A stretch of DNA of 64,000 bases. Origin: Opitutales bacterium. GTDB taxonomy: Bacteria > Verrucomicrobiota > Verrucomicrobiia > Opitutales > UBA953. The position numbers were made by a program, and so were the translations under genes. The stretch's first letter is position 1, and each line of letters starts with the position of its first letter. The stretch lies in NCBI GenBank assembly GCA_030725715.1, contig JANRFG010000016.1, positions 1 to 64,000 of the forward strand. Direction: 5' to 3'. Below are positions 10,210 through 58,053 of this stretch, one piece after another. The notes beneath the pieces were generated by a model that worked only from the letters and a program-made list of their open reading frames with translations, did no database searches and was not told the origin of the DNA.

Positions 10210-10268
10210 GGGGTAAGCGTTATGGGACAATTAAGACACCCTCGGGTTCATGGCAATTGGCACTTAAC

Positions 10269-10295
10269 AAAAACCCCCTCGAATGAGGGGTTTTG
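10269..10295 (-). terminator. Intrinsic terminator of the DUF1080/DUF1501 operon
   Basis: On the minus strand the RNA reads AAAACCCCTC-ATTC-GAGGGGG followed by five T. The stem pairs 10275-10280 with 10285-10290 and is extended by the A/T run. It begins about 21 bases after the stop of the double DUF1080 gene and separates that operon from the downstream PSD1 gene. Confidence 0.85.
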
Positions 10296-10315
10296 AAGGA
10301 GTCTGCCGGAAGGCC

Positions 10316-11611
10316 TTACTTGGCGGCCAGGTCCTTGATCGCGATGTTCCGGAACTCGGCCGGGTCGTTGTGGCCGGCGAAGCCGAAGTAGCCGTTCTTG
10401 CGGTCCTTGCCCGGGTGGGGGCTCTTCGCCATGACCGTGGTCATGTCGACCTTGGCGAGATCGGTCTCGAGGATGACGAAGCCGTTGAGCTCGACCTTGA
10501 GCGTGGAGCCGACGACCGTGACTTCCTGGAAGTTCCATTCGCCGATCGGGCGCTGGAAGCCGCGCTGGGCGCCGACCATGCCGTAGGCGGAGCCGTGGAC
10601 CTGCCGGGGGTCGATCTTACCCTTCACCTTGTCGTAGTTGTCGTCCAGCACCTGGAGTTCGCACATGCCGACGTAGGCCGTATTGCCGGTGCCGGGGTAG
10701 CGGAGGGCGAGGCCATTGTTGCCGCCCTTCGGCAGTTTGAACTCGAGACGCACGGCGAAGTCGGTCAGGTCCTGGTCGTAGTAAGGCGTCCCGCCCTTGC
10801 CGGTCTTGCAGCGGATGGCGCCGTCGACGACTTCGTAGTTCTCGACCGGGCCGGCCCAGCCGGTGAAGTCCTTGCCGTTGAAGATGGACTTGTAGCCGGC
10901 GGCGGCCTTCGCGGAGAGGATGCGGCTGGCTTCTTCGCCGGCGATCTCGCGGATCGCGACGTTGCGCCAGCGGATCGGGGCGCCGTGGGTCTGGAGGCAG
11001 ATCGGGCCCTTGGCGGCGAGGGCGGCCTTGCGGTCGTAGTAGTTCTCCATGGTCGCATGGTCGACGGTCTGCTTGCCGTTGAGCCAGACGCTGACACGGG
11101 CGCCGACCATCACGACGCGGAGCGTATTCCATTCGCCGGCCGGCTTGTCAGCCAGGACCAGCGGATCCTTGCCGGGCTTGCCGGGGGAGTTGTTCCAGAG
11201 GGCGCCGGAGCCGAGCTGGGCGCCGTGCTTGTGGGCCTTCTCGTCGGTCGGATCCCAGATCTGGACCTGCGGGGCGCCGCGGAGGTAGACGCCGGAGTCG
11301 CCCTTCGGCGCCATGTTGTATTCCAAGGTCAGTTCGAAGTCGCCGTATTCCTTGTCGGTGGTGGCGTAAGGTCCCGTGCCTGGGTTGTAGATCTCACCGT
11401 CCTTCACGGACCAATGTTGTGCGAAGTCGTCGCGCATCTTCTTGAGCATCGCGTCCTTCTTCTCGCCCGTGAGCTTGGCCACCGAGTGAGGGTTATAACC
11501 GTGCCAGCCGGCAAGGTCCTTGCCGTTGAAGAGCGAGGTGAAGCCGGCCGGGGCATCGGCGGCGATGAGCGCGGAGGTCGCGAGGGCGAGGAGGGCGGGG
11601 AGGAGGCGCAT
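10316..11611 (-). CDS. Secreted protein with two DUF1080 domains
   Basis: A 431-residue protein with a Sec signal (1-18) and two tandem DUF1080 (3-keto-disaccharide hydrolase/lyase-like, concanavalin-like jelly roll) domains: about 24-222, starting TSLFNGKDLAGW, and about 241-430, starting KSIFNGKDFTGW. Both keep the WNTLRV/WNFQEVT strand and ILNGK-like motif typical of the family. Known members cleave 3-keto-glycosides in the periplasm; the substrate here is unknown. The two halves are divergent, so this is an old duplication or fusion. It is the last gene before the terminator at 10269-10295. The 36-base gap upstream contains a GGGGTA tract. Confidence 0.9.
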   Translation of the reverse strand: MRLLPALLALATSALIAADAPAGFTSLFNGKDLAGWHGYNPHSVAKLTGEKKDAMLKKMRDDFAQHWSVKDGEIYNPGTGPYATTDKEYGDFELTLEYNMAPKGDSGVYLRGAPQVQIWDPTDEKAHKHGAQLGSGALWNNSPGKPGKDPLVLADKPAGEWNTLRVVMVGARVSVWLNGKQTVDHATMENYYDRKAALAAKGPICLQTHGAPIRWRNVAIREIAGEEASRILSAKAAAGYKSIFNGKDFTGWAGPVENYEVVDGAIRCKTGKGGTPYYDQDLTDFAVRLEFKLPKGGNNGLALRYPGTGNTAYVGMCELQVLDDNYDKVKGKIDPRQVHGSAYGMVGAQRGFQRPIGEWNFQEVTVVGSTLKVELNGFVILETDLAKVDMTTVMAKSPHPGKDRKNGYFGFAGHNDPAEFRNIAIKDLAAK

Positions 11612-11620
11612 GACTGAAGA

Positions 11621-11639
11621 GGGGTAGGGGTAGGGGTAG
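11621..11639 (+). repeat. GGGGTA tract, potential G-quadruplex
   Basis: Three complete GGGGTA units occupy the gap between two minus-strand DUF1080 genes. Related longer tracts occur at 19132-19157 and 56439-56470. With only three full runs, quadruplex formation would need an extra G-run from nearby sequence. Confidence 0.6.
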
Positions 11640-11647
11640 TAGGTCGA

Positions 11648-12319
11648 TTACAGGGGCTCGAGGGTGCAGCGCTTGACCTCGAAGGCGCCGCCTTCGACCT
11701 GCAGGCCGATGAAGCCTTCGGAGAGATTGGTGCCGGTGGCCTTGTTCACTTCCTTGCCGTTGACGAGGATCGTGACCGTGTTGCCGTCGCAGACGGTCGT
11801 GAAGGTATTCCATTCGCCGGCCGGCTTCTCGGCGTCGGCCTGCTTGCCGAGGCGATAGCCACGGATCTTGCCGGTCTTCTTGTCCTTGAGCTCCGTACCG
11901 CCGGAGAGCGTGGCGCCGTTCCAGAAGTAGAAGTCGCCCTGGTTCTTGTGCATGCCTTGGCACTCGATGCTCTTCGGCCAGACCGCGTCGGGGGGCGTCA
12001 TGTGCACGACCACCCCGGTGTTGCCCGGCTTGGTGAAGCGCCATTCGACCGTGAAGCGATACTGCTTGTAGCTCTGGGTGGTGCGGAGGAAGCCGCTGGG
12101 CTTGCCCGTGCATGCGAGGATGCCGTCCTTGATGGACCAGGAATCCTTGCCGGCTTCCGGGAAGACAGACCAGCCGGCGGTGTCCTTGCCGTTGAAAAGT
12201 TCGGTCTTGGCGGACGGCGTGACGGCGGTCGTGCCGTCGGCCGACTCGTTGAGGCAGCCAGTTTGTAGTAGGGAGGAAACCAGCAGGGCGGCCGCGAGGG
12301 CGAGGCGGGGGAGGGGCAT
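11648..12319 (-). CDS. DUF1080 lipoprotein
   Basis: A 223-residue lipoprotein with lipobox LQTGC (C22) and one DUF1080 domain (about 38-222), beginning TELFNGKDTAGWSVF. Conserved strands include RFTVEWRFTKPGNTGVVVHM, KSIECQG and GEWNTFTTVCDGNTVTILVNG. Expected to sit on a membrane facing the periplasm and to act on a 3-keto-sugar glycoside, by family analogy. It is downstream of the pair-2 DUF1501 gene (78-base gap holding a hairpin) and upstream of the two-domain DUF1080 gene, all on the minus strand. The leader before ATG is C-rich without a Shine-Dalgarno sequence. Confidence 0.9.
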   Translation of the reverse strand: MPLPRLALAAALLVSSLLQTGCLNESADGTTAVTPSAKTELFNGKDTAGWSVFPEAGKDSWSIKDGILACTGKPSGFLRTTQSYKQYRFTVEWRFTKPGNTGVVVHMTPPDAVWPKSIECQGMHKNQGDFYFWNGATLSGGTELKDKKTGKIRGYRLGKQADAEKPAGEWNTFTTVCDGNTVTILVNGKEVNKATGTNLSEGFIGLQVEGGAFEVKRCTLEPL

Positions 12320-12359
12320 GGAACGACCTTAGGGTTTCAACCTGACCGTTGAAGTCTAA

Positions 12360-12382
12360 ACGCCGAAATTTAACGGCGTTAA
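12360..12382 (-). other. Hairpin between DUF1501 and DUF1080 lipoprotein genes
   Basis: Arms AACGCCG and CGGCGTT, separated by an A/T-rich loop, lie 16 or so bases beyond the DUF1501 stop on the minus strand. There is no proper T-run, so it could be an attenuator, partial terminator or processing site that sets expression of the DUF1080 genes relative to the pair upstream. Confidence 0.4.
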
Positions 12383-12397
12383 AGTGTCGTTTACCGC

Positions 12398-13834
12398 TCA
12401 GGCCATGATGCCCTTCACCACCTTGCCGGCGACGCCCGTGAGGCGCACGTCGAGGCCCTGGAACTTCACGTTCAGACGGTGATGATCGATCCCCATCAGC
12501 GCGAGCATCGTGGCGTGCAGGTCGTGGACATCGACGACGTTCTCGACGGCGTTGTAGCCGAGTTCGTCGGTGGCTCCGTAGGTCGTGCCGGCCTTCACGC
12601 CGCCTCCGGCGAGGAAGACCGAATACCCGGCGATGTGGTGGTCACGGCCGGTGCCCTGTCCCATGGGGGTGCGACCGAATTCGCCGCCCCAGAGGATCAG
12701 GGTGTCGTCGAGCATGCCGCGTTCCTTGAGGTCGCGGATGAGGGCGCCGGTCGCCTTGTCGACGTCTTCCGCGCCCATCTTCATGCCGTTATCGAGGCCG
12801 CCGTGGAGGTCCCAGGCGCGGTGGTAGAGCTGGATCATGCGCACGCCGCGTTCAGCGAGGCGGCGGGCCATGAGGCAATTGGAAGCGAAGGAGCCGTCGC
12901 CGATCTCCTTGATGCCATAGGACTCGATCGTCTTTGCCGACTCGCTCTTGAAGTCGAGCAGCTCGGGGACGCTCGACTGCATCTTGAACGCCATCTCGTA
13001 CTGGGCCACGCGGGTGGCGATCTCCGGATCGACGGTCTCCTGGGCCAGCTGGCCGTTGAGGCGACGGATCTCGTCGATGACCTGACGCTGCGTGCTCTGG
13101 CAGACGCCTTCGGGGTTACCGATATAGTGGACGGCCTCGCCCTTGGATTGGAACTGGATACCTTGGTACTTGCTGGGCAGGACGCCGCTGGACCACTGGC
13201 GGGAGGAGATCGGCTGCTGACCGGTGCGGCCGGCCGAAGTGAGCACGATATAGCCCGGGAGGTTCTCGGTCTCAGAGCCCAGCCCGTAGAGCAACCAGGA
13301 GCCCATGCTCGGGCGGCCCTTGATGATCGAGCCCGTGTTGAAGAAGGCGTGGGCCGTATCGTGGTTGATCTGTTCCGTCTTGAGCGAACGCACGACGCAG
13401 AGGTCGTCGGCGACGGAGCCGATGTGCGGGAAGATGTCGGTGAGCTCCATGCCCGACTTGCCCCACTTCTTGAATTCAAACGAACCTCCACGGGCCTTGA
13501 GGACGGCGCCCTGGAGCTGGGCGATCTGCTGGCCTTTGGTGAAGGATTCCGGGAAGGGCTGGCCTTCGAGTTTCTTCAGGACAGGTTTGTTGTCGAAGAG
13601 CTCGAGGTGAGGCGGGCCGCCGGCCATGCAGAGGAAGATGACGCGCTTGGCCTTCACCGGGAGGTGCGGGGCCTTGAGCACGCCCTTGGAGAACGGCGCG
13701 GCGTGCAGGTCGGCGAAACCGGACTTCGCGGCGAGCATGGCGAAGGCCGCGCTGCCGAGGCCGTAGGCGCTCTTCGTGAGGAAGCTCCGTCGGTTGATCG
13801 ACAGGGCGTGGGCGACGGGGTCGTAAGGGCGCAT
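12398..13834 (-). CDS. DUF1501 protein, Tat-exported (pair 2)
   Basis: A 478-residue DUF1501 protein with Tat motif NRRSFLTK at residues 14-21 followed by a hydrophobic helix ending near SGFA. Family landmarks are FLCMAGGPPHLELFDNKP, HIGSVADDLCVVRSL, WGGEFGRTPMGQG-GRDHH, and the terminal VHDLHATMLALMGIDH. The reaction is unknown. The ATG lies four bases after the stop of the PSD1 gene, so the two are co-transcribed and probably coupled. DUF1080 genes follow on the same strand, which distinguishes this cassette from the other two. Confidence 0.91.
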   Translation of the reverse strand: MRPYDPVAHALSINRRSFLTKSAYGLGSAAFAMLAAKSGFADLHAAPFSKGVLKAPHLPVKAKRVIFLCMAGGPPHLELFDNKPVLKKLEGQPFPESFTKGQQIAQLQGAVLKARGGSFEFKKWGKSGMELTDIFPHIGSVADDLCVVRSLKTEQINHDTAHAFFNTGSIIKGRPSMGSWLLYGLGSETENLPGYIVLTSAGRTGQQPISSRQWSSGVLPSKYQGIQFQSKGEAVHYIGNPEGVCQSTQRQVIDEIRRLNGQLAQETVDPEIATRVAQYEMAFKMQSSVPELLDFKSESAKTIESYGIKEIGDGSFASNCLMARRLAERGVRMIQLYHRAWDLHGGLDNGMKMGAEDVDKATGALIRDLKERGMLDDTLILWGGEFGRTPMGQGTGRDHHIAGYSVFLAGGGVKAGTTYGATDELGYNAVENVVDVHDLHATMLALMGIDHHRLNVKFQGLDVRLTGVAGKVVKGIMA

Positions 13835-13838
13835 GGGC

Positions 13839-16800
13839 TTAGTAGCGGGTGATCGCTTCGTGGGAGTTGAGGAGGACGCGGCAGGCTTGCGTCCAGGCGG
13901 CGAGTTCGGCCGGGTCGAGGCCGGCGGGCGTCGGAGCCTGGCCGACCTTCAGGAGCTTCGTCGCGTCTTCAGGGTGAGCCTGGTAATAGGCCTTCTGATC
14001 GGCGACGAGTTTCTCGAGCGACGGACGCTCGCTGGCTTTGATCTCGCGGCCGACCGCGAGGCGGAAGGCGAGGGCGAGGCGCTCGTCGGCCGGACGGGCC
14101 AGGAGGCGGGCGGCGAACGCGCGGGCGGCTTCGACGAAGACGGGATCGTTGAGCAGCGTCAGCGCCTGCTGCGGCGTATTGCTGTAGCTGCGGAGCGCGG
14201 TGCATTCATCGCGGGCGGGGGCGTCGAAGTTGACGAGCATCGGGTGCAGGAACATGCGCTGCCAATGCATGTAGAGGCCGCGGCGCCACTGGTCCGGGCC
14301 GGTGCTGGCGACGTAGGTGCGGTTCGGGAACTGGATCGGCTCGTAATAGCCGGCCGGCTGGTAGGGCTTGGCGCTGGGGCCGCCGATGTCGGCGGCGTGC
14401 AGGAGTCCGGAGACGGCGAGCGCGTTATCGCGGATGAATTCGGCGTCGAGACGGCGGGGATTCTGGGAGGCGAGCAGACGGTTAGCCGGATCGATCTCCT
14501 TGAGGTCGGGGCGCAGGCTGCTGCTCTGGCGGTAGGTCCGGCTCGTGACCATCAGGCGGACCATGCGCTTCACGTCCCAGCCCTTGTCGCGGAACTCCAG
14601 GGCGAGCCATTCGAGGAGCTCGGGGTGGGAGGGGAGTTCGCCTTGCGAGCCAAGGTCATCAAGCACGGCGGTAAGGCCGGTACCGTAGAACGCCTGCCAC
14701 AGGCGGTTCATGAACGTGCGGGCCGTGATCGGGTTGTCCTTCGAGGTGATCCAGTCGGCGAGGTCGAGACGGGTGAGTCGCTTCTGTTCGGTGCTCGTGC
14801 GCAGGCCGGGCAGGAACGAAGGCGTCGAAGGCAGCACGACCGGCCCGGATTGGTCCAGGAAGTTGCCGCGCGGAAGGACGCGGACCTCGAGCGGCTTGGT
14901 GGCCTGCGTCACCATCGTCCAAGCATAGCCTTGGTTCTGACGGCGGAGTTCGGCGTTCAAGCTGCGCGCTTTGAGCAAGGATTCGCGGCGGCTCGCCGAG
15001 GCGGCCAGGAAGCTCGGCATCGCGGCCGCGGTCGGCTGGGCCGTGGATGCGGCGGAGAGATTGGCCGGGCTCGTGACCTGCAGCGGGTCGTGGTGGCTGA
15101 GCGGAGAGAGCGACACCTTGAGGGTCAGTGCCGGAGCATTCACGAGATGGACGACGAACTTTTCGTCGGGCTTCAGCATCGCCGGGACGTCGAGGACCCA
15201 GACCGCATGGACGTCGGCGGAGGGCATCTTGAGCGACCACCCGCTGTTGATGTCCGTATGTTCGATGCCGCTCTTGTAAAGAGGCTCCCGGTGCGAAGCA
15301 TCGGCGAGGGTCACGCCCACGCCGCGTTCCTTGCCCTTGGCGTCGGCGATGGCGAAGCGCACGCCGAGATTCGCGGTAGCATCGGCGGGCAGGGAACCTT
15401 TAGGCAGGTCGATCCGCACCGAAGCGACGGAGCTTCCTGGCGCGTCGAAACGGAGGGCGAAGTCGTCCCCCTTGCCGAGGGCCTTCGGGATCTTCACCAG
15501 GCTGTCGGCGGCGAAGGCGGTCGGTGCGGGCGCGTCAGGGGCCTTGGCCTTCATCTTCGCCTTGGCGGCTTCGGTGTTCTTGGCGGCAGCCTTGGCCTTG
15601 CCGGCGGCGGCGGGCGTCGCGGGCTTGAGGAGTGAGGTGCCGGCCGGGCTGATCAGGCCGGAGGGATGCCGGGCAAGCGTAGCTTTGATGCCTTGCCGCC
15701 AGGCATGGTAGCCCGCGAGGGCCTGCGGGTCGGCGGCGAGGGCCTTGGCGGCCGCGGCGTAGTGAGCCTCGAGTTCGGCGCGGAGACGGGCGTCCTGCTT
15801 GACGAGGTAGGCGTTCTTCACGCGGGCTTCAGGGAAGAACGGGTGTTCGTTGCCGACGCCTTTCAGTTCAGGCTCCGGGGTGTAGTTGTAGTTGGCGTAG
15901 ACGCCCCACTGCTTCACGTCGGCGAAGAAGGCCTGCAGGGAGTAGAAGTCCGCGGACTTGATCGGGTCGAACTTGTGGTCGTGGCACTCCGCGCAGCCGA
16001 ACGTGCTGCCCAGCCAGGCGTTGGAGACCGAGCGCACGCGCTCCGCGCCATACTTGGCGAGGTATTCCTTGAGCTGGGCGCCGCCCTCGCGGGTCATCAT
16101 GTTCAGGCGGTTGTAGCCGCTCGCCGTCAGTTGTTCTTCGGTCGGGTTAGGCAGCAGGTCGCCGGCGAGCTGCTCGCGCGTGAAGACATCGAAAGGCTTG
16201 TTGGTGTTGAAGGCGTTGATGACGTAGTCGCGGTAGGGGAAGATGCGCTGGTTCTGGTCGCCGTGGTAGCCGACCGTGTCGGCGAAGCGGGCGATATCCA
16301 GCCACCAGACCGCCATCCGCTCGCCGAAGTGCGGTGAGCCGAGCAGGCGGTCGACCTGCTGCTCGAAAGCGTCGGCTGACTTATCCGCAACGAAGGCGGC
16401 GGTCTCGGCGGGCGTGGGCGGCAGGCCGGTGAGGTCGAGGGAGAGACGACGGAGGAGGCGCTCCTTGGAGGCCTCAGGCGACATCGACGCCTTCTTCTCG
16501 GCGAGCTTGGCGGCGACGAACGCGTCGATCGGGTTCTTGCCGCCGGCCGGCATCGGCGGGACGACCGGGGCTTCGAGCGGCTTATAGGCCCAGTGGGGTT
16601 CGTAGACCGCGCCTTGGGCGACCCAGCGACGGAAGAGATCCTTCTGGGCGGACGTCAGCGTCTTGTGCGCTTCCTTCTCCGGCATGATGTCTTCGGGGTC
16701 GTCCGAGAAGATGCGTTTGATGATCTCGCTCTCCTCGGGTTTGCCGGGAACGATCGCGATTTCGCCGCTCTTGCCGGCTTTCAGCGCTTCTTCGCCGATG

Positions 16801-16970
16801 TCGAGGCGCAGTCCGCCCTTGCGGGACTTCGGGTCGAAGCCGTGGCAATGGAAGCACGTGTCCGACATGATCGGCCGGATGTCGCGGTTGAAGCGGACGA
16901 CGTCACCGGAAGGGTCGGCGCCGAGTAGGCTGACGACGGCGAGACAGGCGGCGGACGGCAGAAGACGCAT
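13839..16970 (-). CDS. PSD1/DUF1549/DUF1553 planctomycete cytochrome (pair 2)
   Basis: A 1043-residue secreted protein with a Sec signal (about 1-18), first heme motif CFHCH (39-43), the KGGLRLD block, DUF1549 with the second motif CAECHDHKFDPI, and DUF1553 with FMNRLWQAFYG and PSHPELLEWLALEF. The middle contains an Ala/Lys/Pro-rich linker of roughly 35 residues before a beta-sandwich-like segment; this linker is absent from the other two paralogues. The ATG at 16970 gives the signal peptide; 14 further codons reach only a TTG. CGTTATG at 16980-16986 precedes it, as in pair 1. Its function is inferred to be extracytoplasmic redox or carbohydrate processing. Confidence 0.92.
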   Translation of the reverse strand: MRLLPSAACLAVVSLLGADPSGDVVRFNRDIRPIMSDTCFHCHGFDPKSRKGGLRLDIGEEALKAGKSGEIAIVPGKPEESEIIKRIFSDDPEDIMPEKEAHKTLTSAQKDLFRRWVAQGAVYEPHWAYKPLEAPVVPPMPAGGKNPIDAFVAAKLAEKKASMSPEASKERLLRRLSLDLTGLPPTPAETAAFVADKSADAFEQQVDRLLGSPHFGERMAVWWLDIARFADTVGYHGDQNQRIFPYRDYVINAFNTNKPFDVFTREQLAGDLLPNPTEEQLTASGYNRLNMMTREGGAQLKEYLAKYGAERVRSVSNAWLGSTFGCAECHDHKFDPIKSADFYSLQAFFADVKQWGVYANYNYTPEPELKGVGNEHPFFPEARVKNAYLVKQDARLRAELEAHYAAAAKALAADPQALAGYHAWRQGIKATLARHPSGLISPAGTSLLKPATPAAAGKAKAAAKNTEAAKAKMKAKAPDAPAPTAFAADSLVKIPKALGKGDDFALRFDAPGSSVASVRIDLPKGSLPADATANLGVRFAIADAKGKERGVGVTLADASHREPLYKSGIEHTDINSGWSLKMPSADVHAVWVLDVPAMLKPDEKFVVHLVNAPALTLKVSLSPLSHHDPLQVTSPANLSAASTAQPTAAAMPSFLAASASRRESLLKARSLNAELRRQNQGYAWTMVTQATKPLEVRVLPRGNFLDQSGPVVLPSTPSFLPGLRTSTEQKRLTRLDLADWITSKDNPITARTFMNRLWQAFYGTGLTAVLDDLGSQGELPSHPELLEWLALEFRDKGWDVKRMVRLMVTSRTYRQSSSLRPDLKEIDPANRLLASQNPRRLDAEFIRDNALAVSGLLHAADIGGPSAKPYQPAGYYEPIQFPNRTYVASTGPDQWRRGLYMHWQRMFLHPMLVNFDAPARDECTALRSYSNTPQQALTLLNDPVFVEAARAFAARLLARPADERLALAFRLAVGREIKASERPSLEKLVADQKAYYQAHPEDATKLLKVGQAPTPAGLDPAELAAWTQACRVLLNSHEAITRY

Positions 16971-17037
16971 AGGGGATGTCGTTATGACACTCCCCCTTGC
17001 CCGGGGTTTCAAACGATTAATAGGGAAGACCGCCTAA

Positions 17038-19122
17038 TCAGCGGGCCTGCCAGTTGACCGCGTCGATGAGGACGTAGCCCTTGGCCCCGGCGTTACTGAC
17101 GGTCACCTTGGCTGGCCCGGCCGGGAATCGATAGGTGCCAAGCGTCAGCAGACCGTTCGGAGCCCCTTTGCCCGTCAGGTCGACGCGGAGTTCGGCCACG
17201 CCATCGGCGTGCCCGATACGGACCAAGGCGTCGCGGCTCCGGTTGGCGTTAGGGACGACCGTCAGGCTGACGGCGTAGGTGCCTGCTGCGGGTAGCTTGC
17301 CGATGAAGGTCGCGGAGGCCGGTCCGGCGGAGCCCTTGTCGTCATGGCGGTAGCCAGAGCCGACGAAGCCACCGTTGGCGGAGCTCTGTTTCCATTCACC
17401 GGTGAGCACCGCCTCGTCGTCATCGACGGTGACCCCGGGAAGCGAGGATGCCGGCTTGGCCGAACCATGCCCCTTGGGCTTCTGCTTGGACGACTCATGC
17501 TCGAGCACCTGGCCGTCGGCGAGCAGGCGGGCACGGAGGGTCGCGTAGGGGACGTCCTGCACGGCGAGGTTGCCGTCGATGGCGAGCGCGGCGGCGGTGG
17601 CGGCCGATTGGCCGAGGATCATGAAGACGGGCTCCATGCGGATCGACCCGTAGGCGATGTGCGTGGCGCTGCAGGCCACGGGAGCGAAGAGGTTGGCGAT
17701 CTCACCGCGCTTCGGGACCAGGGAGCCGTACGCGATCGAGTAGGGGGAGATCGGCACGCCGATGTCGCCTTCGTTCTGCACGTTGCCTTCCGGTGTCACG
17801 TAACGGCGCACGTTATGGGAGTCGATGGTGTAGGAGCCCATGCCCACGGAGTCAGGCGTCGGCTTCTTCTTGGTGAGCTCGTTCTCGGTCATCACGAACG
17901 CTCCGACCATGCGGCGGGCCTCGCGGACATAGATCTGATGCGGCCAGTGGCCGTTGTCCTTGAATTCATCTTTCGGCAGGCCCCAACGGTTGGCTTCCTC
18001 CCGGACGTCGGCCGGCACGCGTGGGTCGTTGGCGAGGAACCAGAGCAGGCCTTGCTGGTAGGTGCGGTGCTCGGCGAGGATCTCCTTGCGGCGCTCGTAG
18101 GAGGCCTCCGGGTAGTCGTAGTTCATCCCGATGTTATCAAAACTGAAGGGCCCGTGGTTGTTCGTGTCGGTCTTGCGGTTCGGGAGCAGGTCGAACTTGT
18201 GGAACGTCTGGCGCCAGCCGGCGTCGAGGACGCGGACCAGCAGCTCATACTGCGAGGCGTCGTAATTCGCCGGTTTCGGGAAGGGGATGCGGTTGTCCGG
18301 GTGATCCGTCGCGCACCAGCGGTAGCAGTAGGCTTGGACACGCTTGTCGCCCTCGCCGCGGACGCCGGGCGGTTCGGAAGAGATGCGGGGCAAGAGACCT
18401 GAAGCAGGGTCGCCGGGGACTTTGTAGGCGCTGATCGGCTTCTTCACGGCGCCGAAGTGGTGGCCGTGATGGAGGATGCCGACCTGGTTGCCGTTCCATT
18501 CCTCGCCGTAGGCGTAATTCGCCTCGCGGCCCACATGGTAGCTGACGCCCGCGGCGGCGAGGAGGTCACCTTCGTAGGTCGCATCGATGAACATCTTCCC
18601 GGCGAACTTCTTGCCGGAGAGCATCGTGATCTCGGCGATGCGTCCGTCGGCGACGCGCACGCCCTTGGCGCGGTCGAGCCATTCGTCGCGGAGGACGGTC
18701 AGGCCGAACTCCTTCACGTAATCCTCGAAGACCTTCCCCGCGACGCTCGGTTCGAAGATCCACATCGTACGTTCGTCCTTGTCCATCGCCACCGTGCCCT
18801 GGCCCTTGTTGCCGAAGGCTTCGGTCTGCTGCCACTTCCAGGTCTCCGGCTTCTGATACTCGACCCAGACGCGGTGGTAGAAGTTGCGGGCCAGACCGCC
18901 GATGACGGCCTTGTTGCCGGTGTCCGTGTAGCCCAGGCCGCCGCTGCTCAGGCCGCCGAGGTGGACGTCGGGGCCGACGATGACCACGGACTTGCCCATC
19001 TTCTTGGCTTGGACGGCGGCGATGACCCCGGCGGAAGTGCCGCCATAGACCACGACGTCATAAGTCTCTGCCGCAGTGAGACGCAGGGCGAACAGGCAGA
19101 GCAGGGAGAGGCGGAGGAGCAT
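17038..19122 (-). CDS. Secreted FAD-dependent oxidoreductase with golvesin/xanthan-lyase-like C-terminus
   Basis: A 694-residue flavoprotein of the FAD_oxidored (PF12831-like) type with an N-terminal Sec signal (1-18). The dinucleotide motif GGTSAG is at 27-32, followed by VDVHLGGLSSGGLGYTD-like sequence, MFIDATYEGDLLAAAGV and the terminal IMGQ/AATAAALA FAD-binding region. The last 130 or so residues (from about 565) form a beta-sandwich resembling golvesin/xanthan lyase modules, suggesting binding to a polysaccharide. The substrate is unknown; a sugar or glycosidic hydroxyl is plausible from context. It sits between the pair-2 and pair-3 cassettes on the same strand, 67 bases before the pair-2 PSD1 gene. 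Confidence 0.85.
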   Translation of the reverse strand: MLLRLSLLCLFALRLTAAETYDVVVYGGTSAGVIAAVQAKKMGKSVVIVGPDVHLGGLSSGGLGYTDTGNKAVIGGLARNFYHRVWVEYQKPETWKWQQTEAFGNKGQGTVAMDKDERTMWIFEPSVAGKVFEDYVKEFGLTVLRDEWLDRAKGVRVADGRIAEITMLSGKKFAGKMFIDATYEGDLLAAAGVSYHVGREANYAYGEEWNGNQVGILHHGHHFGAVKKPISAYKVPGDPASGLLPRISSEPPGVRGEGDKRVQAYCYRWCATDHPDNRIPFPKPANYDASQYELLVRVLDAGWRQTFHKFDLLPNRKTDTNNHGPFSFDNIGMNYDYPEASYERRKEILAEHRTYQQGLLWFLANDPRVPADVREEANRWGLPKDEFKDNGHWPHQIYVREARRMVGAFVMTENELTKKKPTPDSVGMGSYTIDSHNVRRYVTPEGNVQNEGDIGVPISPYSIAYGSLVPKRGEIANLFAPVACSATHIAYGSIRMEPVFMILGQSAATAAALAIDGNLAVQDVPYATLRARLLADGQVLEHESSKQKPKGHGSAKPASSLPGVTVDDDEAVLTGEWKQSSANGGFVGSGYRHDDKGSAGPASATFIGKLPAAGTYAVSLTVVPNANRSRDALVRIGHADGVAELRVDLTGKGAPNGLLTLGTYRFPAGPAKVTVSNAGAKGYVLIDAVNWQAR

Positions 19123-19131
19123 GGCCGAAAA

Positions 19132-19157
19132 GGGGTAGGGGTGGGGGTAGGGGTAGG
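19132..19157 (+). repeat. GGGGTA tract, potential G-quadruplex
   Basis: Four runs of at least four G separated by TA or T lie in the 48-base gap between the hydrolase stop and the flavoprotein start. Both flanking genes are on the minus strand, so their RNA would be C-rich and the G-quadruplex would form on the opposite DNA strand. Confidence 0.65.
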
Positions 19158-19170
19158 TTACCTGCCTCGG

Positions 19171-20015
19171 TCAGCGGTGGGCGGACTGCTTGGCGATGAA
19201 GTTCAGGATCGCGAGGCGCGCGGGGTCGTCGAGGTTCCGGATGTTATGTCCGACGGTGCCGTGGTCGCGGTCGTCAATGCGCAGCGAATAGTTCTCCGTA
19301 TGTCCAACTGCCTTTAGGGTCGTCACGAAGAACATGTTCTCCTCGGCGCGGCTGAGCATGTCATTCTGGGCGTAGATCGTGAGGATCGGCGGCAGTGATT
19401 TGCGGATATGGAAAGCGGGAGCGGCTTCGTCGGAAGTGATGCCATAGCGGGCTTGGCCACGTTCTTCGCGGACGGTGTAATGGTTGAAGACCTGGCCGCT
19501 GACTTGGGCGATGCCGGCGACCGAGCCGAGCGTGAGACCGTGCGGCTTCAGCCGTTCCGGGTCCATGCCTACGAGCAGGGCGAGGTAGCCGCCGGCCGAG
19601 TGGCCACCGATGAAGACCTTGCGCGGGTCGCCGCCATGTTCGGCGATATGCTTGACCGTCCAGGCGAAGGCCGCGGCGGCATCATCGACGTAGGCCGGAT
19701 ACTTCGCCTTCGGGCTGAGCCGGTAGTCAGGCGTCACGACCGCGACCCCCGCCCGGGCCAGGCTCTCGCGGATCTCGACGCAGTATTCCGAGTTCAGGTC
19801 CTTGCCGCCGTTCTTCAGTCCGCCGCCGTAGAACCAGACGTAGGTCGCGAAACCCTTGGCACCCATGGGCACGGTGAGGTCGAGCTTGCAACGCTCCTGC
19901 TCGTAGGGCGTGAGCGAAACGACGTCATCCTTGTAGGTGATGTCCTTAAGGACCTTGGTCTCGACCGCCCCGGCTGGGGCGCAGGCGAGACAGAGCAGCA
20001 GGAGAGCGAGGCGCA

Positions 20016-20016
<1 letters not shown>
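19171..20016 (-). CDS. Secreted alpha/beta hydrolase (esterase/lipase family)
   Basis: A 281-residue hydrolase with a Sec signal (1-16). The oxyanion segment is WFYGGGLKNGG, the nucleophile elbow GHSAGG places serine at S140, DYRLSPKAKYPAYVDDA is the typical HSL/carboxylesterase block, and the C-terminal RDHGTVGH supplies the histidine. It probably removes acyl groups from a carbohydrate or its oligomers. The ATG at 20016 overlaps the DUF1501 stop by one base (TGATG on the minus strand), so it belongs to the pair-3 operon as third gene. A longer frame upstream is arginine-rich shadow sequence. Confidence 0.88.
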
Positions 20017-21454
<1,438 letters not shown>

Positions 21455-21455
<1 letters not shown>

Positions 21456-24400
21456 CAGTCGGCGAAGGCGAATTCGTTGCTTTGGAGGAGGACCTGGGCG
21501 AACGTGGAAAGGGCCGATTGGCGGTCAGGCTTGCGGCCGAACTCGCCGGCGGCGGAACTGATGACTTCGCCGGTCTGGGCGTCCTTGATGACCGGCGACC
21601 AAGTGAAGCCGTCGCTGTTGGAGCCGACGAACTGGTCGGCGATGAAGTCGATGCTTTCTCCCGCGGCCAGCTCCACCGAGGCGAGCTCGACCGGGGCGGA
21701 GGCTCCGCCTTTGACGATGACTTCGGCGAGCAGGCCGCGACGGGAAGAGACGATGCGGGCGCGGACGCCGTCGCTGGCCTTGCTCTGGACGGCGAGGGCG
21801 CCTTCGAGGCGATACTTGCCCGGACTGCCGGCTGTCCAGCGACGGATGGCGGCGGTCTCCGGCAGGCTGCCGGTGTGGCCGCCCTTGGGCGTCAGGAAGA
21901 CGAAGGCGTATTTCTTGTCCGGGATCTGCGCGGTGGGGGCGATGCGGTCTTTGACGCGGGTCGTCATCGCCGTGAAGGCCGTCGTCTTCGTCTTCGGGTC
22001 GTAGCCACCGAAGCCGTTGGTCCAAGCCGCCGGGGCCGGGGCTGCCGCCGCTTCGCGCAGGTACTCGAGGGCCAGTGCGGTCTCGTCGGCGCGAGGCGTG
22101 CGGGCGAGGATGGCGAGATAGAGCGCGCGGACCTTGGCGGCGTCGTCCGGTTGGGTCGAGACCTTCGCGGCCAGTTCGTCGGCGAGCGAGCGGCCGAACG
22201 GATGGTTGAGCATCCAGAGCGACTGCTGCGGCGTCGTGGTCTGGTTGCGCTTGGGCACGTGATAGTCGGGATTGGCGAAGTCGAACGTCCGGAAGAAGGC
22301 CGGCAGGTTCTGGCGGTCGATGTGGCCGTAGATCGTGCGGCGGGGCGTGCCGAAGGCGCTCACCAGGTCGAAGGGCTGGCCGCCCAGCTTGGAGTCATCC
22401 AGGCGTCCGGCCACGCGCAGCATGCTGTCGCGCAGGGCTTCGAAATCGAGGCGACGGCGATGGGCGCGCCAGTGCAACGAGTTGTCGGGGTCCTTGGCGA
22501 CGGCGTCGGCCCGGAGATCGGCGGACTGCAGGAAAGTGCGCGAGAGGACGATCGAGCGGATCAGCTTCTTCATCGACCAGCCCTCCTTCATGAACGAGCT
22601 CGCCAGATGCTCCAGCAGGGCGGGGTTCTTGCCCGGCGTGGTCCGGACGCCGAAGTCGCTCGGGGTCTCGACGAGCGGCTGGCCGAGGAGATGCATCCAG
22701 ACGCGGTTGACCATCACGCGGGCGGTCAACGGGTTGGTCGGGCTCGCGATGGCGTTGGCGAGGTCGAGTCGGCCGCTGCCCTGGGTGAACTCCTTGGGCG
22801 GACCGTCGGAGAGGATCGAGAGATACTGTCGGGGGACCTTCTTGCCCGGGCGCGACGCGCTTCCGCGGAGGAAGACGACGCCTTTCGCCGCCTTGGCCTT
22901 GTCGACCAGCGCCATCGCGTGAGGCGGGCTCTTCGGACTGGTGGCCTTGAAGCCCGAGACGTCGATCTGCAGCTTTTTGCGGGTGTTGCGGTCGGCGACG
23001 TTATAGGTGCCGATCAGCGAAGCGGGCGTCATGGCCGTCGGTCCGCTGGGATGGAGGATCAGGTCGCGCCAGGGCTTCCACTCGGCTTGGGTGGCATGCT
23101 CCGGCTTGCGGGCTTCGGAGAGCAGGGCGGCGTAGGTCGCGGTCAGTTCAGCCAATTTCGTCGGCGCCTTGGCCTTCAGCCGGGTGCGGAGCAGCGGGTC
23201 GGCGAACGAGGTGGGCTGAGACAGCAGCGCCGCGAAGCGCTTCGGGAACTCGGCGTCGGCGACGCCCTGCAGGCTCACCCAGGCGCCCCAGACCGGGTCG
23301 GTCGGCGCCAGTTTCGGCTTCAGCGCGTTCTTCCAGCCGCCGAGCACGGCCGCATAGAGGTTCGCCGCCTTGGCCTTCTGGTTGGCATCGAGTTTGGCGT
23401 CCTTGAGGGACTCCATCGTCAGATTGAGATAGGCCGTCGTCTTCTCCGGAGAGAAGGAGAGGTCGTAGCGGCTCTGGATGAAGTCATTCAACTTCTTCTG
23501 GCGCACCGCCAGTTCGGCTTCGAATTCCTCCGTCTCCTTGGTGCGGGTGAACGGCTTCAGCGGTGGGAGCTCCTTGGGCTCCTCGCTGGAGTTGAAGATC
23601 GCGTAGAGGGAATAATATTCCGTCGTCGGCAGCGGATCGAACTTATGGTCGTGGCAGCGCGAGCAGGCCATCGTCAGGCCTTGGGTGCCGCGCATGACGA
23701 CGTCGATGCGGTCGTCGATGATGTCGGGCGTGCTGTTGAGGAAGCGGCGGCCGAGGGTCAGGAAGCCCAGCGCGGCGAGGTCGCGGTTGTTCTCCGGATC
23801 CTTGACGATCTGGTCGGCGGCTACCTGCAGGCGGAGGAACTGATCGTAGGGCAGGTCGTCGTTGAAGGCCTTCACCACCCAGTCGCGATAGGTGTAGGCG
23901 TACGGATAGCGGCGCTCTTCCTGGAAGACGTAGCCCTTCGTGTCGGCGTAGCGGGCGACGTCGAGCCAGTGACGGCCCCAGCGTTCGCCGAAGGCCGTCG
24001 AGGCCAGGAGACGGTCGACGAGTTTCTCGATCGCCTGCGGATCCTGGTCGGCGACGAAGGTGGCGATCTCGGCGGCGGTCGGCTGGTAGCCGGCGAGCGC
24101 GAGGGTCAGACGGCGGATGATGACTTCGCGGCCGGCCTGCGGATTGAAGTGGAGGCCGGCTTCCTTGAGCTTGGCCAGGACGAACCGATCGAGGGGCTGG
24201 CTGATCTGGGCGACGTCGGTCGAAGTAACGACGGGCGGCGTCGGCGCGACGACCGGTTGGAAGGCCCAGTGCTTCCGCGGGTCGTGGGCGTTAGGCTTGG
24301 CTTCTTCCGGCCAGGGCAGTCCTTGACGCACCCATTCCGTGAGCGCCGCGATCGCCTTGGGCGGAAGCTTCTCGTCCTCGCCCGGCATGGCGTAGACATC

Positions 24401-38845: not shown

Positions 38846-38901
38846 GGTAGGGTTGAGCGCCCTCGCTCAACCGCGGCTGACCGAGGGCGGTCAGCCCTAC
38901 C
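38846..38901. repeat. Paired GTAG-hairpin element (REPIN-like)
   Basis: GGTAGGG at 38846-38852 and CCCTACC at 38895-38901 border two hairpins: GGTTGAGCG/CGCTCAACC (38851-38859, 38864-38872) and GGCTGACCG/CGGTCAGCC (38875-38883, 38888-38896). Each half reads GTAG then hairpin from its own outer end. This matches the 5'-GTAG-hairpin layout recognised by RAYT transposases. Confidence 0.75.
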
Positions 38902-42590: not shown

Positions 42591-42699
42591 GGTAGGGCAC
42601 GAACGTAGTCGTGCCCCTACCTACCGGCCACCATGCTGCGGCCGGTACAACGTTCGCCGAATGGTGAACGCTGGTAGGGGCGGGGCTACGCCACGCCCT
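42591..42699. repeat. REPIN-like inverted pair left of the RAYT gene
   Basis: Copy 1 (42591-42647): hairpin GGGCACGA/TCGTGCCC with GTAG ends on both sides, followed by a second hairpin TACCGGCC/GGCCGGTA (42622-42629, 42640-42647) whose loop contains ACCATG. Copy 2 (42651-42699) is oriented oppositely: GTAGGGGCGGGGCTACGCC stem plus CGTTC(GCC)..GAACG hairpin with the same ACCAT loop on its own strand. The pair is immediately upstream of the transposase gene. Copy 1 is repeated at 43218-43267 (50 bases, two mismatches). Confidence 0.85.
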
Positions 42700-42776
42700 T
42701 CGTGATATATCCTCCTAGTTCAGAGTGAGGGTTTACCTTACTTGCCGTCTGTGGCGTCCTGTCGTCTCTGTCATGA

Positions 42777-43232
42777 ATGCCCTACAAGGAGCGAAAAAGA
42801 TTGCTGCACGACAGGCCTGCGTGGGTTTCGGGTGAAGATCCAATATTCCTAACTTTGTGCGGTCGCCCTCGTAGGGTTAATCAATTTGTGAACACCGATG
42901 CGTGGAGCGCCGTCCTGGAATCCTCAGCCGGACTAGAATCCATAGGGCGATGGCGATCGCTTCTGATTCTAGCCATGCCGGACCATCTGCATCTGATCGT
43001 ATTGATTCCTCGGACGCCTGGCATCGACTCCCTCATGACGGACTTCAAGCGAAGCGTCTCCTTTAGGTACCCTATCGATTGGCAGCGGGACGGATTCGAT
43101 CATCGATTACGGAACCGTGCACAGTTGCGTGCCAAGTGGAACTATGTGCTCATGAATCCGGTCCGGGCCGGATTATGCAAGACGACCGAAGAGTGGCCCT
43201 ATGTCTGGTCTCCGGGGAGGGCACGAACGTAG
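42777..43232 (+). CDS. REP-associated tyrosine transposase (RAYT, Y1/TnpA_REP family)
   Basis: A 151-residue HUH single-strand transposase. The MPDHLHLIVLIP segment carries the HLH metal-binding histidines, TDFKRSVSF is the conserved basic helix, WQRDGFDHRLRN leads to the catalytic tyrosine region (KWNYVLMNPVRAGL holds the tyrosine), and EWPYVWS closes the fold. Such enzymes nick at REP hairpins preceded by GTAG. The gene is less GC-rich than neighbours, a sign of recent acquisition. Its stop codon and last four residues lie within the right-hand REP copy (43218-43267). It probably spreads hairpins rather than itself; no IS ends or target duplication were seen. Confidence 0.92.
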   Translation: MPYKERKRLLHDRPAWVSGEDPIFLTLCGRPRRVNQFVNTDAWSAVLESSAGLESIGRWRSLLILAMPDHLHLIVLIPRTPGIDSLMTDFKRSVSFRYPIDWQRDGFDHRLRNRAQLRAKWNYVLMNPVRAGLCKTTEEWPYVWSPGRART

Positions 43233-43267
43233 TCGTGCCCCTACCTTCCGGCCACCATGCGGCGGCC
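43218..43267. repeat. REP copy right of the RAYT gene
   Basis: Fifty bases match 42594-42643 with two mismatches: the GGGCACGA/TCGTGCCC hairpin then CCGGCCACCATGC. Just beyond, TGATCGTTC at 43271-43279 resembles the end of the other REP type (compare CGAACGATCA at 56521-56530), suggesting a partly deleted inverted partner reaching into the 3' end of the Tm-1-like gene. Confidence 0.85.
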
Positions 43268-55008: not shown

Positions 55009-55067
55009 GGCGATGTTCGGATGAAAACGACGGGCGGGGCGGGGTAAAGGGATTATAGGGTCGATTA

Positions 55068-55093
55068 GGACAGCACGTGGTGCTGTCCCTGCC
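55068..55093 (-). repeat. Single REP-like hairpin, GCAG variant
   Basis: A perfect 9-bp stem (GGACAGCAC/GTGCTGTCC, 55068-55088, loop GTG) followed by CCTGCC. On the minus strand it reads GGCAG then GGGACAGCACCACG; the same unit with GTAG occurs twice at 57983-58053. Preceding CGATTA is also shared with that element. It lies between the CLC and Gfo/Idh/MocA genes. Confidence 0.7.
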
Positions 55094-55148
55094 TGGTGAG
55101 GCCGTTGAAAACCTTTGCGGGCGTCTGACCGAGACTCAGTCTGTGGGC

Positions 55149-56420
55149 ATGGAACACCCCATCCAACGTCGCGATTTCGTATCCACCCTGGCCATCGGCG
55201 GTCTCGCCCTGGCCGCCGCTCCGGCCGTCCTGCGCGGCCAGTCGGTCCCCTCCAAGATCAAGGTCGCCCTGATCGGTTGCGGCGGCCGTGGCACCGGCGC
55301 CCTTGGACAGTTCATCGCCGCCTGCAAGATTCTTGGCGCCGAAGCCGAGGTCGTCGCCCTTGCCGATGCCTTCGAAGATCGCGCCAAGCGCCTGAACGAG
55401 ACGTATAAACTTCCGTCCAACCGAGTTTTCGTCGGCTACGACGCCTACCAGAAGGTCATGGCCACCGATTGCGCCTTCGTGCTCATGGCGACCCCGCCGG
55501 CTTTCCGTCCGGTGCACTTCGCCGCGGCCGTCGCCGCCGGCAAGCACTGCTTCGTCGAGAAGCCCGTCGCCGTCGATCCGGTCGGCGCCCGCGCCATCAT
55601 CGCCACCGGCGAGGAAGCCAAGAAGAAGGGGCTCGCGGTCGTCGCCGGCACGCAGCGTCGCCACGACGCCTCGTACATGAAGAACAAGGCGCTCATCGAC
55701 GCCGGGGTCATCGGCGAGCTCCGCGGTGGCGTCGTGCAGTGGAACGGCACCGTGCCGTGGGTCCGTCGTCGCGCCAAGGGTGAATCCGACGCGGACTACA
55801 TGAACCGTAACTGGCTCAACTTCACCGAGCTTTCCGGCGACCATATCGTCGAGCAGCACATCCATAACGTCGACGTCGCCATCTGGTTCCTCGGCCGCAC
55901 TCCGGTCAGCGCCCTCGGTTTCGGCGGCCGCGCCCGTCGTGACACCGGCAACATGTTCGACTTCTTCAGCGTGGATTACGACTTCGGCGACGGCGTGCGC
56001 ATCCATAGCCAGTGCCGCCAGATCACCGGCACCTCCGGTCGCGTCGGCGAGTTCTTCACCGGAGCCGAAGGCTCGTGCTTCGGCTCCGGCAAGGTCTTCG
56101 CCAAGGCGGGCAAGAAGTACCAGACGCCGGACATCAAGCTGGATACCCATGACTCCATGGTGCAGGAGCACGTCGACCTCATCCGGAGCGCCTTCAACGG
56201 CAAGCCGCTCAATGACGCCCGCCAGATCGCCGAGACCAATCTCGCCGTGATCCTGGGTCGCATCTCCGCCTACACCGGCGAACTCATCAAGTTCGACGAC
56301 CTGCTGAAGCACGAAAATTCCCCTTATTACAATCTGAAGGCTTCCGTCGGACCGCTCGATTTCGAGAAAGGCACCGTCCAGCTGCCCGCCGAAGTACCGA
56401 CGATTCCGGGTAAGGCCTGA
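55149..56420 (+). CDS. Tat-exported Gfo/Idh/MocA family oxidoreductase
   Basis: A 423-residue NAD(P)-type oxidoreductase with twin-arginine signal (QRRDFVSTLAIGG, R7-R8), Rossmann motif VALIGCGGRGTG (39-50), the EKPVAVDP segment with the catalytic lysine (K139), and HNVDVAIWFLG containing the conserved histidine. Export of a nucleotide-binding enzyme folded in the cytoplasm is typical of Gfo/Idh/MocA proteins in PVC and related bacteria and implies tightly bound cofactor. The substrate is a sugar or glycoside, unidentified. It converges with the FAD oxidoreductase gene, and the gap is filled by a hairpin, G-tract and REP element. Confidence 0.9.
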   Translation: MEHPIQRRDFVSTLAIGGLALAAAPAVLRGQSVPSKIKVALIGCGGRGTGALGQFIAACKILGAEAEVVALADAFEDRAKRLNETYKLPSNRVFVGYDAYQKVMATDCAFVLMATPPAFRPVHFAAAVAAGKHCFVEKPVAVDPVGARAIIATGEEAKKKGLAVVAGTQRRHDASYMKNKALIDAGVIGELRGGVVQWNGTVPWVRRRAKGESDADYMNRNWLNFTELSGDHIVEQHIHNVDVAIWFLGRTPVSALGFGGRARRDTGNMFDFFSVDYDFGDGVRIHSQCRQITGTSGRVGEFFTGAEGSCFGSGKVFAKAGKKYQTPDIKLDTHDSMVQEHVDLIRSAFNGKPLNDARQIAETNLAVILGRISAYTGELIKFDDLLKHENSPYYNLKASVGPLDFEKGTVQLPAEVPTIPGKA

Positions 56421-56437
56421 CGAGGGCGGAGCCCTCG
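56421..56437 (+). terminator. Hairpin after the Gfo/Idh/MocA gene
   Basis: CGAGGGC-GGA-GCCCTCG is a perfect 7-bp stem starting at the base after the stop codon. It lacks a T-run, so terminator function is uncertain; the GGGGTA tract follows directly. Confidence 0.5.
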
Positions 56438-56438
56438 A

Positions 56439-56470
56439 GGGGTAGGGGCAGGGGTTGGGGTAGGGGTAGG
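56439..56470 (+). repeat. GGGG tract, potential G-quadruplex
   Basis: Five G-runs of four with 2-base spacers (TA, CA, TT, TA), then TAGG. It lies on the sense strand of the Gfo/Idh/MocA gene, downstream of its stop, so the transcript itself could form an RNA quadruplex. Confidence 0.7.
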
Positions 56471-56477
56471 TTGTGCC

Positions 56478-56530
56478 AGGGCGTGGCGTAGCCCCGCCCC
56501 TACCTTCGTTCACCATTCGGCGAACGATCA
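56478..56530 (-). repeat. REP element copy
   Basis: Stem GGGCG(T)GGC-GTA-GCC(C)CGCCC with CCCTACC on its right (GTAG on the minus strand), then CGTTC-ACCATTCGG-CGAACG. It matches the inverted copy at 42651-42699 near the RAYT gene across both hairpins and so extends that family 14 kb away. It ends against the stop codon of the FAD oxidoreductase gene. Confidence 0.85.
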
Positions 56531-56531
56531 A

Positions 56532-57929
56532 TTACCCTTGGCGGACCTTGGGGAGCAGGGCGGAGGCTTCGGACCAGGAGACCTCGTGCGGGGCTCTCTT
56601 GGACGAGGCGGCGAGGGCGCTGGTGACGCCGGCGGCTTCGCCCATGGCGACGGCGTTACCGGTGACGCGATACGACGCATGGGCGATGAAGTCCCCGCTG
56701 ATGCACCGGCCTGCCATCATGAGGCCGTCGACATCGCGAGCGATGAGGGCGCGCAGCGGGATGTCGTAAGGCTTCACCTTCACGCCCATGCTGGAATAAG
56801 CGGATTTATCTTTGGTCAGCGCGTGCACGTCGACCGAGAACGTGGCCCGCACGACGGCGTCATCGTGTCTGGCTCCGTTGGCGACGTCGTTCTTGACCAC
56901 GGTGTAGCGGCCCGCCAGACGGCGGCCGTCCCGCACGCCGATCTGCTCGGCGGTCGCGACGACTTGCATGCCTTTCCAGGGTCCGCCGAGGGAGCGAAGG
57001 CCGCGGACGAGGGAGTTCACTTCGGCTCTGGCTCTTAAGGTCGCCGCGGTCACGGCTTCGGCGTCGGTCGCATTCACGCCATACTCGTGATTGAGCATCG
57101 CAAGGATGAGGTTTCCGCGAACCGGGAAGAACGTGGGCGCTTGGTAGCTAGGATCAGAACCAGCCCGACGAAGCTCGGCCAGCAACCGCTTCTTGTGACC
57201 GTAGCGGTCAGGATTCTCGTAGCCGTCCCCGAAGCGCACGTAGGCGTTGAGGGCGGCGACATCATCGCAGGTCAGCAGGGCGCACATGCTCATCGGCTGG
57301 CAGGGGCAGGCGTTATCGACCCCCAGTTCAAAACTGTTGCCGGCGAGCGCGCCGACATCGCCGTCGCCGGTCGTGTCGATAAGCGTCCGGCCCCGCCAGG
57401 CCTGACGTCCGGACTTGGACTCCGTGATGACACCGACGACATTGCGGCCTTCCTTGATCACGGAAGCGACCCGCGTGTGCAGGTGGATTTTCACGCCAGC
57501 GGCGAGGCAGAGCTCTTCGAGCAGCAGCTTCATCTCCTCCGGGTGATAAGAGATGTCATTCACCCCGCGGCCGTTGATCGCGTCGCGCTCGCGCAGACGA
57601 CGCACCAACTCCTGATTGAAGCCGGGCTTATCGAAATCCAGCAGATAGCCCAGGAGCGAGGACGTCCAGACGCCCCCGAGGGATCCGTGCGTCTCAATCA
57701 GTCGCACCTTCGCTCCCGCGCGGGCGGCGGAAATAGCGGCCGTGACCCCAGCCGGTCCGGCGCCGCAGACGATGACGTCCGCCCAGTCGTCGACCGTGAG
57801 TTCGCGGGCAGGCTCCGTGAAGGTCGCCAAGGTCGAAGCAGCGTCGAGTTTGCTCAGGGCGCCGAGGCCGCCGAGGCCGAGAAGCGAGGAGGACAGGAAG
57901 CGACGGCGGGAGGATGCGTTGGAATCCAT
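56532..57929 (-). CDS. Tat-exported FAD-dependent oxidoreductase
   Basis: A 465-residue flavoprotein with Tat motif SRRRFLSSS (residues 7-15), FAD site VIVCGAGPAG (52-61), TLIDTTGDGDVGALAGNSFELG and C-terminal GLMMAGRCISGDFIAHASYRV, typical of the FAD_oxidored (PF12831) group. It is shorter than the one at 17038 and lacks a C-terminal beta-sandwich. Substrate unknown, extracytoplasmic. The ATG at 57929 is chosen because the Tat signal starts there; the frame upstream has no homology and runs into the REP-like element. Confidence 0.88.
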   Translation of the reverse strand: MDSNASSRRRFLSSSLLGLGGLGALSKLDAASTLATFTEPARELTVDDWADVIVCGAGPAGVTAAISAARAGAKVRLIETHGSLGGVWTSSLLGYLLDFDKPGFNQELVRRLRERDAINGRGVNDISYHPEEMKLLLEELCLAAGVKIHLHTRVASVIKEGRNVVGVITESKSGRQAWRGRTLIDTTGDGDVGALAGNSFELGVDNACPCQPMSMCALLTCDDVAALNAYVRFGDGYENPDRYGHKKRLLAELRRAGSDPSYQAPTFFPVRGNLILAMLNHEYGVNATDAEAVTAATLRARAEVNSLVRGLRSLGGPWKGMQVVATAEQIGVRDGRRLAGRYTVVKNDVANGARHDDAVVRATFSVDVHALTKDKSAYSSMGVKVKPYDIPLRALIARDVDGLMMAGRCISGDFIAHASYRVTGNAVAMGEAAGVTSALAASSKRAPHEVSWSEASALLPKVRQG

Positions 57930-57982: not shown

Positions 57983-58053
57983 GGTAGGGACAGTACCACG
58001 TGCTGTCCTCCGTGGACTGGCCGATTAGGACATCACGTGGTGATGTCCCTACC
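57983..58053. repeat. Inverted pair of GTAG-hairpins (REPIN-like)
   Basis: GGTAGGG at 57983-57989 opens and CCCTACC at 58047-58053 closes the element. The left hairpin GGACAG..CTGTCC lies at 57988-58008; the right, GGACATCAC-GTG-GTGATGTCC, lies at 58028-58048. Both halves read GTAG then GGGACA when followed inward from the ends. It sits between the FAD oxidoreductase and the NIPSNAP terminator. Confidence 0.8.

Follow-up and report, generated by a model that had tools for sequence, protein, structure and literature searches.

RAYTs and REP sequences in described systems

In Stenotrophomonas, Pseudomonas and E. coli, the gene for a REP-associated tyrosine transposase (RAYT, TnpA_REP) always lies between two oppositely oriented REPs that carry a GTAG tag, the trees of RAYTs and REPs agree, and the abundance of a REP class depends on its cognate RAYT (PMC2817692, PMC3686654). 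This framing, the co-evolution and the RAYT-dependent abundance were published between 2010 and 2013 for Stenotrophomonas and Pseudomonas (PMC2817692, PMC3686654). For the REPINs of P. fluorescens SBW25, it was proposed in 2011 that they are MITE-like elements moved by RAYTs (PMC3116915). A 2013 study of GTAG REP families, REPtrons and TIRtrons included Opitutus terrae, and GTAG repeats are thus known in Verrucomicrobia (PMC3733652). Head-to-head heterodimers, ends with double hairpins and REPs overlapping the 3' end of a RAYT gene were also described there, as were TIRs consisting of a GTAG unit plus a stem-loop that adjoin P. putida 607 and P. fluorescens 4255 (PMC3733652). At the biochemical level, the TnpA_REP of E. 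coli and others process or cleave their cognate single-stranded REPs in vitro, with a hairpin that is imperfect in some TnpA_REP families and perfect in others (PMC8266576). A full-text phrase search for literature on REP-associated tyrosine transposases in Verrucomicrobia returned PMC3733652 only.

The locus described here was found in a window, i. e. the whole analysed stretch of 64,000 nucleotides, from an uncultured freshwater Opitutae-like member of the Verrucomicrobia (assembly of 1.93 Mb, 95% complete). With the RAYTs of Stenotrophomonas, Pseudomonas and E. coli it shares the inverted bracket, the agreement of trees and the RAYT-dependent abundance; it differs from them in its host, an uncultured member of the Verrucomicrobiota, and in a REP that has a second, outer hairpin and whose two halves, termed R and L, are consistently different. 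The repeated unit is, as in SBW25, an inverted REP doublet with GTAG outside (PMC3116915), but each half contains two hairpins and the copies number about ten, not hundreds. Compared with the families of PMC3733652, those found here are distinct in sequence as far as compared, and they comprise about ten RAYT/REP pairs in one genus, for which abundance was analysed in a double-dissociation test. The HUH/Y1 fold and the GTAG tag are common to the enzyme studied here (RAYT-A), E. coli TnpA_REP (structure 4ER8) and the group 3 enzymes of S. maltophilia and Marinomonas (PMC8266576), whereas RAYT-A is only about 22% identical to 4ER8 in the fold alignment and its REPs display an internal mismatch as well as a CTAC loop. 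RAYT families of this bacterial group likewise have imperfect hairpins in some cases and perfect ones in others. The kind of system is already known; what is added is a two-hairpin REP whose asymmetry is consistent and a genus with many matched RAYT/REP pairs.

The transposase RAYT-A

The open reading frame at 42777-43232 (+ strand) encodes 151 amino acids, the length given in a preliminary description of this DNA. Its product matches the NCBIfam model NF047646 (REP_Tyr_transpos) with an E value of 2e-19 and 69.9 bits, the curated cut-off being 80 bits, and Pfam Y1_Tnp weakly with 15.4 bits at a cut-off of 23. The sole sequence match in the PDB is 4ER8 (phmmer 2.4e-6), an E. coli RAYT in complex with a REP hairpin. 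The same structure ranks first in a Foldseek search with the AlphaFold model (mean pLDDT 82; E 8e-9), followed by ISDra2, IS608 and related IS200-type transposases. H70-L71-H72 forms the HUH motif and Y123 is the candidate for the catalytic tyrosine; both are unchanged across 14 homologues, as is the NP of the NPVRAGL motif (Y-x3-NP), and both are placed in a predicted Y1 transposase fold. Because of the NF047646 match (below the curated cut-off), the sole PDB match to 4ER8 and the top rank of 4ER8 among the fold matches, the open reading frame is, as judged from sequence and predicted structure, a RAYT (TnpA_REP) gene. The closest named relatives are MAGs of uncultured Opitutae and Verrucomicrobia.

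Two different half-REPs at the RAYT locus

Three half-REPs surround the gene: R at 42651-42699 on the + strand and two copies of L, different in sequence and opposite in orientation, at 42591-42643 and 43215-43267 on the − strand. Each consists of an inner hairpin beside a GTAG tag and of an outer hairpin with an ATGG/ACCAT loop. In R, an outer GTTC/ATGG hairpin (42651-42670) precedes the tag (42674-42677, +) and the inner hairpin (42678-42698), which has a conserved internal mismatch and a CTAC loop. The left L comprises the inner hairpin (42595-42616), followed by the tag, i. e. GTAG on the − strand (CTAC at 42617-42620 on the + strand), and an outer GGCC/ACCAT hairpin (42626-42643). The corresponding parts of the right L are located at 43219-43240, 43241-43244 (again CTAC on the + strand) and 43250-43267. 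The functional GTAG tags of the bracket hence lie outside the inner hairpins, at 42674-42677 (+) and 43241-43244 (−). The GTAG in the + strand loop of L turned out to be the complement of the conserved CTAC loop and not the functional tag. A CTAC loop, complementary to the GTAG tag, occurs in nearly all inner hairpins of A-type R and L, the family to which these repeats belong (e. g. 42686-42689); type C and most other REP families are without it.

RAYT-A sits exactly between R and the right L (R-RAYT-L), and the right L codes for the final residues of the protein and contains its TAG stop codon (43230-43232). GTAG-tagged REPs in inverted orientation, R upstream and L downstream, flank the RAYT gene in 6 of 6 orthologous loci. 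The left L is an extra copy with 94% identity to the right one; within the 50-base portions 42594-42643 and 43218-43267 there are exactly two mismatches. Both copies are two-hairpin units. As DNA, the left one has a much more stable fold than its shuffled versions (z = −4.9; z = −5.6 for the entire 119-nt repeat), and the outer stem of the right copy is weaker (z = −1.0). The main elements of the preliminary description, i. e. a RAYT with its own REPs on both flanks, near-identical two-hairpin copies, a stop codon inside the right copy and a different, oppositely oriented REP next to the left one, were thus confirmed. Its reading of 42594-42699 as a REPIN was abandoned: the tags point inward in this stretch, which makes it a tail-to-tail (TT) dimer with an orientation opposite to that of the actual unit in the genome and genus, R-L.

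The R-L REPIN in genome and genus

The inner-hairpin pattern has 4 matches in the window, with 0.13 expected, and the two-hairpin pattern was found 8 times in the genome, counted by exact pattern matching as were all genome-wide repeats; its reversed control gave 0. The copy number of A is thus modest, and the counts are far above chance expectation in both window and genome. R-L doublets are present in the genome at C2, C24 and C31. All complete doublets examined across the genus combine one GTTC-type (R) and one GGCC-type (L) outer hairpin, with the GTAG tags outside the inner hairpins, the latter inside and separated by a linker of 0 to about 20 nt, and the ATGG-loop hairpin farther out than the tag. 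As an inverted REP doublet with outside GTAG that is repeated in the genome, R-L is a head-to-head heterodimer, i. e. a REPIN by published usage (PMC3733652, PMC3116915). A solo R of the same A family, 96% identical to R, is located at 56478-56526 (−) between two convergent genes. In an alignment of orthologous sites from 13 genomes, the corresponding site in G034 contains a full R-L REPIN, and the solo R appears to have lost its L half.

Both halves show compensatory stem changes: 12 double-sided cells were counted for R and 12 for L, with 1.8 and 1.9, respectively, in shuffles. The share of paired cells amounts to 96% in the true register and drops below 46% in slid registers. The pair counts of L are based on alignment A3; an alignment of all L copies was set aside, the L stem at the RAYT locus being one base longer. 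As a check on the circularity of the two-hairpin pattern, the inner hairpin was also searched for by itself, which yielded 40 distinct matches in 30 loci. A script assigned outer hairpins of type A to 16 and of type B to 4 of these, and inspection by eye added about ten with variant A/B outer hairpins, the rest being mostly hairpins of other families. With the sorting partly done by eye, this indicates that A/B-type outer hairpins accompany this type of inner hairpin and no other type.

The convergent intergenic site around 56420-56532 and its orthologues (L236-L252) harbor A repeats in G000, G067, G029 and G034, B in G040 and C in G047, and no REPIN in other genomes; it is read as an insertion hotspot.

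The locus in related genomes

Orthologues of RAYT-A (77-83% identity) were found in 5 of 78 other genomes of the family, all within the genus and, together with the genome under study, dispersed over the gyrB tree. All six genes are single-copy and occupy one site after the stop codon of a shared upstream gene, always with R upstream and with L overlapping the 3' end of the gene. Identity to the locus studied here is 94-96% for R, 92-94% for the right L and 78-81% for the gene at the five orthologous loci, and 51-62% for the spacer. The extra left L occurs in three of the five (G065, G042, G045) and is absent in G046 and G068.

A transposase gene between hairpin ends that differ on the left and right is also the layout of IS200/IS605 elements, and R-RAYT-L could therefore be regarded as an ordinary IS200-like element that currently moves as a whole. 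The entire element was, however, found neither at several loci nor at variable positions: each genome has it once and at an unchanging locus, and the genome under study contains just one further RAYT, a paralogue of 47% identity whose ends differ. In addition, dN/dS of RAYT-A is 0.10-0.16 over a dS of about 0.9. Because of copy number and synteny, the reading as an active whole-element IS was discarded, and its probability is regarded as minute.

Most relatives without RAYT-A have, straight after the upstream gene, a gene that we take from its translation to encode an EamA-type transporter, sometimes with another REP type between the two. In G026, a single L is found where L-R-RAYT-L stood, its left flank corresponding to that of the left copy and its right flank to that of the right copy. 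Judging from the alignment, this fits what recombination or deletion between the direct L copies would leave, with the presumed order of events. Target-site duplications were sought at the empty sites; the REP-adjacent flanks were too diverged for target boundaries to be read.

Matching of RAYTs and REPs and their abundance

In the family, inverted GTAG hairpins frame about 40 RAYT loci, and the hairpin sequence tracks the RAYT lineage. Distances between RAYTs and between hairpins are correlated (Mantel r = 0.82, p = 1e-4; with close pairs omitted, r = 0.63), and the mean hairpin difference is 0.35 within one locus versus 0.85 between loci. The second RAYT of the genome under study, the 47% paralogue (C27:3988-4416, L002), has perfect inverted ends of 29 bp of type C, of which 38 exact copies exist in this genome.

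Beyond the RAYT locus, the six genomes with RAYT-A contain 4, 6, 11, 13, 15 and 16 A half-REPs (median 12), and the 49 genomes without it have a median of 0 and a mean of 1.9; the repeats are hence not equally abundant in relatives that lack the gene. This association is significant in a PGLS analysis (p = 1e-4) that draws on incomplete MAGs, exact-match counts, six RAYT-A genomes and a single-gene phylogeny. Adjustment for gyrB phylogeny, genome size, completeness and the other two REP families gave p = 0.003 for A on RAYT-A and p = 4e-5 for C on RAYT-C, the RAYT-C genes being assigned by flank and tree. The cross terms of this model were not significant (B on RAYT-A, 0.76; C on RAYT-A, 0.24; A on RAYT-C, 0.78). 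Unadjusted counts of B and C are also higher in RAYT-A genomes, a difference that is gone only after adjustment. The result is a double dissociation in which repeat abundance goes with the matching RAYT, A with RAYT-A and C with RAYT-C. Neither of the outcomes that the preliminary description had named as refuting, repeats at chance level and equal abundance in relatives lacking the RAYT, was observed.

The hairpins might instead be kept for a role in the host, such as transcription termination, protection of mRNA 3' ends or DNA binding between convergent genes, with the RAYT as a passenger. Indeed, REPs are located at the ends of genes and in the gaps between convergent ones, one convergent-gene site is occupied by differing REPIN types across genomes, and effects of this sort are established for the REPs of other bacteria (PMC8266576). 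This would nevertheless leave unexplained that some 40 RAYTs each have a hairpin type of their own on both sides, that abundance tracks the cognate RAYT alone and that the RAYT-flanking pair is better conserved than the spacer, and a host role as the full explanation is considered unlikely. Alternatively, the A repeats may owe their spread to a different RAYT or to an enzyme since lost, RAYT-A having merely gained them at its ends. Genomes without detected RAYT-A retain up to 12 A half-REPs (G027), and therefore relics, missed genes or other RAYTs contribute; moreover, orphan families exist, since family B has 23 half-copies in the genome under study (G000), yet both RAYTs there carry A or C ends. 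Against this stand the dependence of A on RAYT-A that persists in the adjusted model and the conservation of matched flanks in six scattered genomes, and a different enzyme is accordingly judged very unlikely. The preferred reading remains that of RAYT-A acting on its own REPs.

Several further repeats were observed. The REPINs of family B (e. g. C8:11180-11278) are A-like but have CCCT/AGGG outer loops; a RAYT with B ends was not detected in the same genome. In G065 (C59, L355), complete B REPINs, directly oriented, stand on either side of a RAYT. Type C REPs (GTAG plus GGACAGCACCACGTGCTGTCC-like sequence) form a head-to-head doublet at 57984-58052 and a partial copy at 55067-55094 of the window. 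An apparently type C RAYT of G042 (C107:12118-12563) is split into two fragments with a stop; a type C hairpin is found close by (12760-12785), and type C copies in G042 number 26. A third REP type is represented by a compact head-to-head doublet at 38847-38900 (GGTTGAGCGCCCTCGCTCAACC / GGCTGACCGCCCTCGGTCAGCC). Hairpins of this type bracket a different RAYT subfamily in G062, G052, G027 and G060, and a search for a RAYT of this subfamily in the genome under study found none. Apart from REPs, the window contains three diverged tandem modules at 5617-24400, about 6.8-7.6 kb apart with direct repeats near 5692, 12472 and 20090, which are apparently paralogous gene sets.

Proposed mechanism and outlook

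The locus is very probably a REPtron, i. e. the pairing of a REP family with its cognate RAYT, here the domesticated HUH single-strand transposase RAYT-A, which would mobilize the R-L REPINs; on the sequence comparisons, this mobilization by RAYT-A is well supported. Most likely, RAYT-A would recognize the folded, GTAG-tagged R and L as single-stranded DNA and cut beside them with a predicted HUH/tyrosine center composed of H70, H72 and Y123. The R-L doublet could then be moved by strand transfer as a short non-autonomous element and be inserted mainly into intergenic sites, for example between convergent genes. The RAYT-A gene itself remains at its one locus and is passed on vertically under purifying selection. 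R-RAYT-L resembles a parent form of which R-L would be the miniature, because the RAYT gene occupies the place where REPINs have only a linker of 0-20 nt. Loss of RAYT-A may proceed through recombination between the direct L copies, with one L left behind. A more tentative possibility, doubtful at this stage, is that the A-type REPIN constitutes a two-ended single-strand transposon with R and L as non-equivalent ends, each made up of outer hairpin, GTAG and an inner hairpin whose CTAC loop is complementary to the tag. R-RAYT-L would then be the parent of R-L, and the L copies would provide a route of enzyme loss that leaves orphan REPINs.

The system bears on how REPs are recognized and spread by RAYTs and on why bacteria retain them. 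With about ten RAYT/REP pairs in close relatives, matched abundance, intact as well as emptied loci and one family with two different ends, this genus offers a compact set for swapping experiments on REP recognition outside the Proteobacteria.
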